Source: Micromonospora luteifusca | GTDB taxonomy: Bacteria > Actinomycetota > Actinomycetes > Mycobacteriales > Micromonosporaceae | Reading direction: 5' to 3' | Assembly (NCBI RefSeq): GCF_016907275.1 | Contig: NZ_JAFBBP010000001.1 | Span: 2,284,001 to 2,348,000, forward strand | DNA: 64,000 nucleotides | Part shown: positions 31,834 through 34,901 of the stretch, piece by piece | Layout of the letters: each line of letters opens with the position of its first letter | Position numbering within the stretch: position 1 is the first letter of the stretch | Position numbers and translations under genes: made by a program | The notes under the pieces: generated by a model | Database searches by the model: none | What the model saw: the letters and a program-made list of their open reading frames with translations, nothing else | What the model was told of the DNA's origin: nothing

Positions 31834-34239
31834 TCAGAGCTTGTCGACCGGGGCGTGCCGCAACACCAGCCACATGGTCTGGTCACCGAAGTCGATCTGC
31901 GCGCGGGCGCCCGGGCCGTGCCCCTCGACGGCGAGCACCCGCCCCAGCCCGTACCGCTGGTGATTGACCCGGTCGCCGGCAGACACCTTCGGCCCCTGCG
32001 GCAGCTCGCTGGCCGTGGTCAGCCGGCTGGCGTCCACGCCGAGCCGCTGGGCCAACTGGGCCGCCTTCGGCGTGCCCCCGGTGAAGGTGCCCCGCCCGCC
32101 GGGCGCCCGGTCCGCACGACCGCCGACGCCGCCGCCTCCGCCGGCCCACGAGGTGTACGACCCTTCGGTGCGCTCCCAGTGCACCAACTCGGTCGGCAGC
32201 TCCTCCAGGAACCGCGACGGCGGGTTGTAGGACGGCTGCCCCCAGGCCGAGCGGGTCACCGCCCGGGAGAGGTAGAGCCGCTGCCGGGCGCGGGTGATGC
32301 CGACGTACGCCAGCCGGCGCTCCTCCTCCAACTCGCGGGTGTCGCCCAGCGAGCGCAGGTGCGGGAAGACGCCGTCCTCCAGCCCGGTCAGGAAGACCAC
32401 CGGGAATTCCAGCCCCTTCGCGGTGTGCAACGTCATCAGGGTGACCACGCCCTGGTGGTCGGGGTCGTCGGAGGGGATCTGGTCGGCGTCGGCGACCAGC
32501 GCCACCTGCTCCAGGAAGCCGGCCAGGGTGGCCCGCTCCCCCTCCTCGCCCAGTGCCTCGATCCGCTCGGTGTACTCCCGGGCCACACTGACCAGCTCCT
32601 GGAGGTTGTCCACGCGGCCGGCGTCCTGCGGGTCCAGGCTCTCCTCCAGCTCGGTGAGGTAGCCCGAGCGGGTCAGCAGCGCCTCCAGCACCTCCTCCGG
32701 GGTGCCGGTCTCGGCCAGCTCCCGGGCACCGTCGAGCAGCGCCACGAAGTCGGCGATGCCGTTGGCCGCCCGGCTCGAGATGCCCGGTGCCTCCCGGGCC
32801 CGGCGCAGCGCCGCGCCGAACGAGATCCGGTCCCGGCCTGAGAGCGCCTCGACACACGCCTCGGCGCGGTCGCCGATCCCCCGGCGAGGGGTGTTGAGGA
32901 CCCGCCGCAGGCTCACCGTGTCGTCGTCGTTGACCACCGAACGCAGGTACGCCAGGGCGTCGCGAACCTCCTTGCGCTCGTAGAAGCGCACACCGCCGAC
33001 CACCTTGTAGGGCAGGCCGACGCGGATGAACACCTCTTCGAAGACACGCGACTGGGCGTTGGTGCGATAGAAGACCGCGACGTCGCCGGGACGGGTCTCG
33101 TCGGCGTCGACCAGCCGGTCGATCTCGCGGGCCACCCAGTCGGCCTCGGCGTGCTCGGTGTCGGCCACATAGCCGACGATCTGCTCACCGGCGCCGGCCT
33201 CGCTCCACAGCCGCTTGGGCTTGCGGGAGGTGTTCCGGTCGATGACTGCGTTGGCCGCGTTGAGGATGGTCTGCGTGGAGCGGTAGTTCTGCTCCAGCAG
33301 AATCGTCCGCGCGTCGGTGAAGTCCCGTTCGAATTCCAGGATGTTGCGGATCGTCGCACCACGGAACGCGTAGATCGACTGGTCGGCGTCGCCGACCACG
33401 CACAGCTCGGCGGGGTCCAGCCCGTCGGTGCCGGAGACCAGCTCCTTGATCAGCGTGTACTGCGCGTGGTTGGTGTCCTGGTATTCGTCCACCAGCACGT
33501 GCCGGAACCGCCGACGGTAGCTCTCCGCGACGTGCGGGTGGGACTGGAGCAGGTGCACCGTGGTCATGATCAGGTCGTCGAAGTCCAGTGCGTGCGCCTC
33601 ACGCAGCCGGCGCTGGTAGAGCGTGTAGGCCTCGGCCAACGCCCGCTCGTTGGGCCCGGTGGCCCGCGCCGCGAACTGCTCCGGGTCGACCAGCTCGTTC
33701 TTGAGATTGGAGACCTGGGCGGCCAGCCCGCGCGCCGGGTAGCGCTTCGGGTCGAGATCGAGCTCGCGGGTGACCAACTGCATCAGCCGGCGGGAGTCGT
33801 CCGCGTCGTAGATCGAGAACGTCGACTTGAGGCCGGCGTGCTCGTGCTCGGCGCGCAGAATCCGGACGCACGCGGAGTGGAACGTCGACACCCACATCAG
33901 GCGGGCCCGAGGGCCCACCAGCGCGGCGACACGCTCTTTCATCTCGCCGGCAGCCTTGTTGGTGAAGGTGATCGCGATGATCTCCCCCGGATGAACGTCC
34001 CGTGCGGCGAGCAGGTAGGCGATCCGGTGGGTGAGCACCCGGGTCTTGCCGGACCCGGCGCCTGCCACGATCAACAACGGGGAGCCGGCGTGGCTGACGG
34101 CGTCGCGCTGTGGCCCGTTCAGCCCAGCGAGCAGCTGCTGCGGATCGAGGCGCGCAGCGGCCGGCCCAGGTCGGTGCGGGCGGGCCGGCGCGGACTCCGG
34201 CGCAGGCGGGGACGCGGGAATGTCGAAGAGAGGATGCAT
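31834..34239 (-). CDS. uvrD1: UvrD/PcrA-type DNA helicase
   Basis: Superfamily 1A 3'-5' helicase for repair and replication restart. 801 residues: N-terminal Pro/Ala-rich tail, Walker A GAGSGKTR, Walker B/motif II VDEYQDTN, motif III DADQSIYAFRGA, motif IV QNYRST, motif V TLHTAKGLEFPVVFLTG and motif VI VGITRARQRLYLS. The C-terminus (VSAGDRVNHQRYGLGRVLAV) is the Tudor-like domain of actinobacterial UvrD1/PcrA, which contacts RNA polymerase or Ku in studied homologues. Divergent from chorismate mutase as Rv0949 is from Rv0948c. Confidence 0.96.
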   Translation of the reverse strand: MHPLFDIPASPPAPESAPARPHRPGPAAARLDPQQLLAGLNGPQRDAVSHAGSPLLIVAGAGSGKTRVLTHRIAYLLAARDVHPGEIIAITFTNKAAGEMKERVAALVGPRARLMWVSTFHSACVRILRAEHEHAGLKSTFSIYDADDSRRLMQLVTRELDLDPKRYPARGLAAQVSNLKNELVDPEQFAARATGPNERALAEAYTLYQRRLREAHALDFDDLIMTTVHLLQSHPHVAESYRRRFRHVLVDEYQDTNHAQYTLIKELVSGTDGLDPAELCVVGDADQSIYAFRGATIRNILEFERDFTDARTILLEQNYRSTQTILNAANAVIDRNTSRKPKRLWSEAGAGEQIVGYVADTEHAEADWVAREIDRLVDADETRPGDVAVFYRTNAQSRVFEEVFIRVGLPYKVVGGVRFYERKEVRDALAYLRSVVNDDDTVSLRRVLNTPRRGIGDRAEACVEALSGRDRISFGAALRRAREAPGISSRAANGIADFVALLDGARELAETGTPEEVLEALLTRSGYLTELEESLDPQDAGRVDNLQELVSVAREYTERIEALGEEGERATLAGFLEQVALVADADQIPSDDPDHQGVVTLMTLHTAKGLEFPVVFLTGLEDGVFPHLRSLGDTRELEEERRLAYVGITRARQRLYLSRAVTRSAWGQPSYNPPSRFLEELPTELVHWERTEGSYTSWAGGGGGVGGRADRAPGGRGTFTGGTPKAAQLAQRLGVDASRLTTASELPQGPKVSAGDRVNHQRYGLGRVLAVEGHGPGARAQIDFGDQTMWLVLRHAPVDKL

Positions 34240-34306: not shown

Positions 34307-34336
34307 TTGCGCGCCCGATGCCGACGTGGGCATACT
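34307..34336 (+). promoter_or_regulatory. candidate promoter of the chorismate mutase leader
   Basis: TTGCGC (34307-34312) and CATACT (34331-34336) with 18-base spacing. A start 7-8 bases after the -10 would fall on or next to the leader GTG at 34344, giving a leaderless leader peptide. Confidence 0.4.
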
Positions 34337-34343
34337 CGACAGC

Positions 34344-34409
34344 GTGATCGCTGCGCGCTACTACTTTTACTATGGCACCGGGAGTCCGGCTGCCGTAGGT
34401 CGCGCCTGA
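34344..34409 (+). CDS. attenuator leader peptide rich in Tyr/Phe
   Basis: A 21-codon frame, GTG to TGA, encoding MIAARYYFYYGTGSPAAVGRA: five consecutive aromatic codons (TAC TAC TTT TAC TAT, 34359-34373). It is followed by mutually exclusive RNA structures and then the chorismate mutase gene, the arrangement of a classical ribosome-mediated attenuator. Scarcity of charged tRNA-Tyr or tRNA-Phe would stall the ribosome on the aromatic run. Too short for usual gene callers. Confidence 0.8.
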   Translation: MIAARYYFYYGTGSPAAVGRA

Positions 34410-34440
34410 TCGATTCAGACCTGCTAAAGCCCCGGGCTCC
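34381..34440 (+). promoter_or_regulatory. predicted antiterminator helix
   Basis: GGAGTCCGG (34381-34389, within the leader frame just after the aromatic codons) can pair over nine bases, one G-U, with CCGGGCTCC (34432-34440), which includes the left arm of the terminator. A ribosome stalled on YYFYY leaves 34381-34389 free; one reaching the stop would cover or pass it. Confidence 0.7.
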
Positions 34441-34458
34441 TGGAGTCCGGGGCTTTTT
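34426..34458 (+). terminator. attenuator terminator before chorismate mutase
   Basis: AAAGCCCCGG (34426-34435) pairs with CCGGGGCTTT (34447-34456) and is followed by TT, 47 bases before the chorismate mutase start. One of the few U-rich hairpins in the window. Confidence 0.85.
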
Positions 34459-34505
34459 CCGTCCCGGGTTTCGGGCACCGGGCACCCCAGTGCGAGAGGT
34501 ACCCG

Positions 34506-34901
34506 ATGATGACAGACGTGATGGAGCAGAGCGGCGGCCCGATCCGACCGAAGGCTGAGCAGCCCGGGGCGAACGGGAGCGAGCCGGCGGTGTCCGCGTC
34601 GCCCGCGGTCCAGAACGCGGGGCCGGCCGAGCCACCGACCGGCACCGAGGAGCCAGCCGCGTCCGCGCGGATCCTGCAGATCAGGGAACGGATCAACGAG
34701 ATCGACCACGCGCTGATCGCGCTGTGGCAGGAGCGGGCCGGGTTGTCCCAGGAGGTCGGGGCCACCCGGATGGCGTCCGGCGGGACACGTCTCGTGCTCT
34801 CCCGGGAACGGGAGGTCCTGGAGCGGTTCCGGGTCGCGCTCGGCGCCGACGGTACCCAGTTGGCCCTGCTGCTGCTCCGAGCCGGCCGCGGCCCGCTGTG
34901 A
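34506..34901 (+). CDS. chorismate mutase, AroQ-delta type
   Basis: Converts chorismate to prephenate, the committed step to Phe and Tyr. 131 residues: a disordered Pro/Ala/Glu N-terminus (~50 residues) then the short all-helical AroQ domain as in M. tuberculosis Rv0948c (IRERINEIDHALIALWQERA, RMASGGTRLV-SRE, C-terminal LLLRAGRGPL). In the Mycobacterium enzyme the C-terminal RLGRG segment matters for activation by DAHP synthase; it is kept here as RAGRG, so the same complex is likely. GAGAGG precedes the ATG pair 34506/34509. Controlled by the upstream attenuator. Confidence 0.92.
   Translation: MMTDVMEQSGGPIRPKAEQPGANGSEPAVSASPAVQNAGPAEPPTGTEEPAASARILQIRERINEIDHALIALWQERAGLSQEVGATRMASGGTRLVLSREREVLERFRVALGADGTQLALLLLRAGRGPL

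Follow-up and report, generated by a model that had tools for sequence, protein, structure and literature searches.

The window analysed here, a 64,000-nucleotide stretch of DNA corresponding to positions 2284001 to 2348000 of genome G000, carries on its forward strand an AroQ-type chorismate mutase (CM) gene (34506-34901), whose open reading frame matches the Pfam family CM_2 (PF01817) with 36.3 bits against a cut-off of 27; the assignment of a CM gene 47 bases beyond the candidate element, made from the letters alone, is thereby borne out. CM, the presumed controlled gene, catalyses the first step of the phenylalanine and tyrosine branch, which leads to the very amino acids that would be sensed. 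Divergent from the leader lies a UvrD/PcrA-like gene on the reverse strand (31834-34239), its family name coming from a reading of the protein. The leader frame itself, VIAARYYFYYGTGSPAAVGRA, runs on the forward strand, as do all features described below, through 21 codons from GTG at 34344 to TGA at 34407-34409, and holds the sensor codons Tyr-Tyr-Phe-Tyr-Tyr (TAC TAC TTT TAC TAT; 34359-34373), just as the original prediction had described it. When frames were screened for at least four consecutive aromatic codons with a start at most 15 codons before and a stop at most 25 after, this leader was the sole frame to pass on either strand of the 64 kb, and in 100 first-order Markov copies such frames averaged 0.02 per copy and never had five or more consecutive aromatic codons; its run of five is unique in the window.

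Upstream, a promoter predicted by eye (34307-34336) consists of a -35 element, TTGCGC (34307-34312), an 18-nt spacer and a -10 element, CATACT (34331-34336), and both TTGCG and GGCATACTC are invariant columns in an alignment of 30 genus sequences. The leader GTG begins 7 nt after the -10 hexamer, and our reading of the promoter agrees with the earlier claim that transcription would start at or adjoining this codon. The leader frame (34344-34409) is probably leaderless, a property that had been called unusual but is not so in this phylum: leaderless trp, leu and ilv leaders are described for S. lividans in the part of PMC8079986 available to us.

The RNA of this region can be resolved into a set of competing helices. 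A protector hairpin, P1 (segments 1:2; 34371-34397), pairs TATGGC with GCCGTA and CCGG with CCGG in the minimum-energy fold and is supported by covariation; its first bases are those of the last Tyr codon, and it sequesters the antiterminator strand GGAGTCCGG (segment 2; 34381-34389). The same strand can pair throughout, with one G-U, to CCGGGCTCC (segment 3; 34432-34440), a pairing that covaries across families, and segment 3 is, by pairing and covariation, common to this antiterminator and to a predicted intrinsic terminator (segments 3:4; 34426-34458). The terminator arms AAAGCCCCGGGCTCC and GGAGTCCGGGGCTTT (34426-34440 and 34442-34456) are paired throughout, again with one G-U, and their 15-bp stem is followed by five T, 47 nt ahead of the CM gene and clear of its start. 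The two mutually exclusive helices put forward originally hold in their positions and their arms pair throughout, the terminator stem being longer than first given. An accessory helix, P2, joining GTAGGTC (34395-34401) to GACCTGC (34418-34424), is nested within the antiterminator, holds the leader stop codon in its loop and is seen in the stalled folds of the window. As modelled, P1 (1:2), the antiterminator (2:3) and the terminator (3:4) correspond to the four segments of a classical attenuator; the analogy with pheA-like attenuator logic drawn in the original prediction, which lacked P1 and P2, is supported by conservation and covariation. The region 34344-34503 is more stable than its shuffles, with a z score of -3.05 and 0 of 200 shuffles as good.

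Our genus sample comprised the best 30 CM loci of 61 same-genus genomes, the window's own locus included, and the leader is present at all 30, each time ending in SPA(A/V)VGRA. Among the 24 of these loci on which the covariance model R1 was built, all lettered cells of the terminator pair, and P2 is paired in every cell, with one compensatory change from UA to CG. Covariation restricted to the genus was discarded as uninformative, the helices barely varying there, and diverse relatives were needed. Within the family, R1 matched 248 of 250 genomes, the two misses being 69 and 77% complete; CM was matched in 99 of the 101 genomes searched. The element occurs once in the window's genome, where a second R1 match proved to be the opposite strand of the same terminator. 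A search for frames of 7-44 codons with at least two consecutive aromatic codons, covering some 800 bases upstream of this genome's single match to type II DAHP synthase and of its single match to prephenate dehydratase, found no second aromatic leader.

A DNA pattern describing the leader and P1 alone, and blind to CM, returned at least 120 stretches from named genomes, including Micromonospora, Paractinoplanes, Dactylosporangium, Amycolatopsis, Pseudonocardia, Saccharopolyspora, Saccharothrix, Lentzea and others, and further Nakamurella, Klenkia, Rhodococcus, Mycobacterium and Mycolicibacterium. Among the matches listed, 117 of the 120 named loci have CM downstream on the strand of the leader, and in the other three (L251, L259 and L304) only 93-140 bases remain after the start of P1; in 110 of these 120 an in-frame start is preceded at 6-7 nt by a -10-like hexamer, and the divergent UvrD-like gene lies upstream of the element, as in the window, in 102. 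Judged by this gene order, the UvrD-like gene and the element form a stable gene neighbourhood. An alternative in which the frame encodes a small functional protein, placed by chance before a terminator, could appeal to the frame being open and conserved in the genus, but the overlapping helices constrain its bases, its C-terminus differs between families and it precedes CM at the 117 named loci counted above, such that we regard this explanation as exceedingly improbable. Among the named loci, seven from mycobacteria (L220, L222, L225, L233, L258, L260 and L265) have the hexamer and the start codon 57-60 bases ahead of P1, against the usual 27, with a longer leader peptide and the same FFYG sensor. 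A further locus, L214, lies on a contig titled Candidatus Melainabacteria that carries an actinobacterial leader, CM and UvrD-like gene; this contig is probably mis-binned.

Covariation was assessed in an alignment of 48 sequences hand-picked for spread. It excluded loci missed or mis-read by the parser (L074, L077, L081, L093, L101, L129 and L143), loci with no clear CM element or with an element not before CM (L137, L144 and L150), a variant that escaped the parser (L156), loci with divergent P1 (L139, L147, L148 and L154) and numerous sequences close to rows already included; because the divergent-P1 loci were omitted, the covariation describes loci that keep P1. For P1 and the terminator, 87.2% of cells are paired across the 48 sequences and changes on both sides involve 13 pairs and 93 cells, compared with shuffled means of 7.8 and 38.9; none of 500 shuffles, which ignore relatedness, reached any of five measures, and slid controls were 34-47% paired. 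The antiterminator is likewise paired in 87.2% of its cells, 28 of them changed on both sides (shuffled mean 14.5), and in shuffle tests of the same kind 0 of 500 matched it on four measures, its four pairs changed on both sides being reached in 95 of 500; slid by -1, 68% of its cells still pair. In 41 of 48 sequences the antiterminator strand forms a stronger duplex with the terminator arm of its own leader than with the arms of other families, and in families f9 and f12 pairing is better with foreign arms. The original prediction had staked itself on relatives sharing the aromatic run and the alternative helices, and both are found to be kept, the two helices covarying as well.

These comparisons also bear on what is being conserved. 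Were the ribosome stalled by a small molecule acting through the leader peptide, as in nascent-peptide arrest, uncharged tRNA would not be the signal, and the strong retention of the peptide within genus and family (for example GTGSPAAVGRA) is in keeping with such a mechanism. Past Tyr-Gly, however, the peptide differs by family (TPAPVIA, AVPVV, PVSVTAG, RPTGCHGRAA) and P1 pairing persists with compensatory changes, so that it is the bases that are held and not the peptide; the residues preceding the aromatic codons vary as well. We therefore consider peptide arrest very unlikely.

We read the element with high confidence as an attenuator of the classical ribosome-mediated type, acting on transcription, sensing charged Phe/Tyr-tRNA and controlling CM. 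Transcription would start at or adjoining the GTG at 34344 and a ribosome would load on the leaderless leader. When Phe- and Tyr-tRNA are ample, it would pass the aromatic codons and leave, upon which P1, according to the computed folds, would form and hide GGAGTCCGG; with P1 formed, the terminator is predicted to fold and transcription would end ahead of CM. When either charged tRNA is short, the ribosome would halt on the aromatic codons and cover the 5' arm of P1, freeing GGAGTCCGG in the computed folds; the freed strand would pair with the terminator's 5' arm, no terminator would form and CM would be transcribed. The predicted features comprise what is expected of an attenuator: a leader frame with a cluster of end-product codons, a protector, exclusive covarying helices, an in-silico switch and a pathway gene downstream.

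The switch was folded in silico for 48 sequences, 47 of them rows of the covariation alignment and L104 replacing L152. In free leaders, folded at the point where transcription has just completed the 5' arm of the terminator, P1 prevails in 44 of 48 and the antiterminator exceeds a probability of 0.5 in three (L107, L112 and L113), neither fold being seen in L119. Placing a ribosome on the penultimate aromatic codon brings the antiterminator above 0.5 in 44 of 48; it is absent from the stalled folds of L133, L135, L138 and L151. When the A site was scanned along the leader, with offsets counted in nucleotides from the first base of P1, the antiterminator peaked at -6, -3 and 0 (above 0.5 in 40, 42 and 32 of 48), positions that coincide with the conserved aromatic codons; Phe or Tyr stands there at frequencies of 0.98, 0.83 and 1.0, the search rule having fixed such a codon at 0 and partly at -3 and left -6 free. 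Upstream of the sensor codons the response is intermediate (22-26 of 48), and from +6 to +30 no sequence exceeds 0.5. In the window, the antiterminator results from a stall at any of codons 6-10. Between +33 and +39, where most stop codons fall, the antiterminator again exceeds 0.5 in 20-25 of 48, and a ribosome at the stop codon permits it in the window's model as well; termination would therefore need P1 to form first, or the ribosome to be released and P1 to refold. The same modelling was applied to 24 leaders of the mycobacterial and Streptomyces-like genera; 20 were parsed and 17 of these switch.

In the full transcript the terminator fold dominates in 48 of 48 sequences. This result, together with the long stem and five T that lie clear of the CM start in the window, weighs against a switch that in some lineages acts mainly on translation or through Rho instead of by intrinsic termination, an idea to which the mycobacterial terminators, whose U run is poor, GTCTCTTGTGT or similar standing in its place, lend some substance. 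We regard such a switch as unlikely, and retain transcription attenuation at an intrinsic terminator as the preferred reading.

Beyond the family, match tallies are not counts of verified elements, since many weak matches sit elsewhere in the genome. With this proviso, which covers the order, class and genus figures alike, R1 matched 104 of 200 genomes of the order, some of them falsely. We also read 20 CM loci from relatives in the order, chosen mostly for the absence of an R1 match at their CM. At 18 of the 20, a script detected a short frame containing consecutive aromatic codons ahead of CM; by eye a Phe/Tyr leader is likewise present at 18, with P1 divergent or lost in L139, L147, L148 and L154. 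One leader, that of L156, is a variant (EFPYG) overlooked by the script, and in L144 the presence of the element is unclear by eye. At L150 (genus g20, in the family of mycobacteria), CM is present and no aromatic leader was seen upstream by eye, possibly through loss or replacement of the element; the locus has instead a short frame beginning MVCPFVKQPL after a -10-like hexamer. As judged from these alignments and readings, the genus, the family and most of the families sampled in the order retain the aromatic run, terminator and antiterminator.

A second covariance model, R2, built on 48 diverse sequences, matched 110 of 296 genomes of the class, the weak ones including chance matches; in the best 30 class loci CM lies directly downstream in all 30. 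R2 also matched 58 of 61 genomes of a genus that we take to be Streptomyces and 52 of 60 in the genus to which G067 belongs, taken to be mycobacterial because four of the seven leaders read there are identical to leaders of named mycobacteria; the remaining three and eight genomes gave no R2 match, for some of which stricter filters may account. This distribution suggests that the element is probably ancestral to much of the class. On present sequence evidence the finding is real and the earlier reading right, and the element is far more widespread than the single lineage in which it was first noted, a breadth that the original prediction understated.

On the allosteric side of this pathway, mycobacterial CM is controlled through a complex with DAHP synthase; an RNA layer would add to the control of an enzyme known so far for that allosteric form. 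E. coli pheL, too, works by antiterminator and terminator logic, and the pheA gene behind it encodes a CM-prephenate dehydratase. By comparison, the element described here would act on a stand-alone AroQ CM, gives Tyr codons as much prominence as Phe codons and probably has a leaderless leader. As a broad RNA family with covariation support it could serve genome annotation, and it is relevant to strains that make antibiotics derived from aromatic precursors. The likeness to pheL-pheA lies in an upstream leader peptide, control by charged Phe-tRNA and the same biochemical step (available part of PMC11802643).

Closer relatives are found among actinobacteria. In the parts of the sources available, the C. 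glutamicum aroR leader (Neshat et al. 2014, as recounted in PMC11802643) precedes the aroF operon for DAHP synthase, is ribosome-mediated, carries Phe-Tyr-Phe (also in PMC4046766) and responds to Phe and not to Tyr (PMC11802643). It shares the phylum with our element and differs in the gene controlled, DAHP synthase and not CM; given that aroR carries Phe-Tyr-Phe yet answers to Phe alone, the amino acid sensed here is unreadable from codons alone. The C. glutamicum CM is likewise described as controlled through a complex with DAHP synthase (PMC11802643), and the available portions of PMC11802643 and PMC4046766 mention no CM leader for this species. The Streptomyces trp, leu and ilv leaders resemble the element in being short leaderless frames that carry regulatory codons and are accompanied by attenuator hairpins (PMC8079986 and PMC1262725, in the parts available) and differ in sensing other amino acids; the eight leaders named for S. 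lividans in the accessible text of PMC8079986 include none for Phe or Tyr. The survey of Seliverstov et al. (2005), in the part of PMC1262725 available, reported no conserved RNA structure upstream of actinobacterial Phe/Tyr operons, and the element would bring RNA control to this branch in the same phylum; the survey predates most genomes used here. In the window, Rfam including Phe_leader gave no match at gathering thresholds; at E values up to 1, 10 loci gave 13 matches, all to unrelated families and below gathering scores, and a T-box riboswitch covariance model matched neither the window nor these 10 loci. We recognised no report of an attenuator on actinobacterial CM in the literature searched, mostly outside subscription papers. 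Within that literature the kind of element is known, and its target, breadth and covariation support appear to be new.

The sensor codons carry further information. At the position 6 nt before P1, left free by the search rules, 193 of 203 distinct leaders have Phe and 9 Tyr. The Phe codon in the window's run is TTT, as are 247 of the 369 Phe codons in the 203 leaders, and four frames of the window taken as genes use TTC for all 43 of their Phe codons and TTT for none; a slow Phe codon might sharpen sensing. Trp occurs in one of 202 leaders of the first set and in five of the 118 distinct leaders among the 120 named loci, all five at 12 nt before P1, when the four codons before the last two sensor codons are counted; neither parser nor pattern could accept Trp at those last two, and Trp is therefore a weaker discriminator.

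All three aromatic amino acids draw on DAHP synthase, and only Phe and Tyr on CM. In a phylum-level sample of 17 loci, 16 of them outside the class, tblastn found CM in none; 11 have an aromatic leader before a type I DAHP-synthase-like frame (L312, L314, L318, L319, L320, L321, L322, L323, L324, L325 and L328, all outside the class) and six do not. Each of these 11 leaders, located around base 1500 of its locus as oriented by the match, is followed by a terminator. Pfam DAHP_synth_1 (PF00793) matched in L312 and L324, the two on which it was run, and the other nine frames were assigned by reading. Trp lies inside the aromatic run in seven of the 11 (L312, L314, L319, L322, L324, L325 and L328), for example in FGDWFFYGG and RYFWFFGTSG. 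The contrast in Trp between CM and DAHP synthase leaders is suggestive, bearing in mind that the loci are related and the CM search rules not neutral to Trp.

On balance we lean, by a little over even odds, towards a scenario in which one inherited CM attenuator predates the split of mycobacteria, Micromonospora and the Streptomyces-like genus and provides the principal transcriptional control of the Phe/Tyr branch in Actinomycetes, as a complement to the allosteric CM-DAHP synthase complex; deeper in the phylum a similar leader would sit on DAHP synthase with Trp codons added, the sensor codons tracking where in the pathway the gene stands. A separate observation comes from within the order, where the R1 match of L137 (121-300; family f10) proves to be a leader, MQAQRWYGFPDRDSRSGAV, whose codons include Trp, Tyr and Phe and which precedes a frame read by eye as DAHP synthase and not CM.
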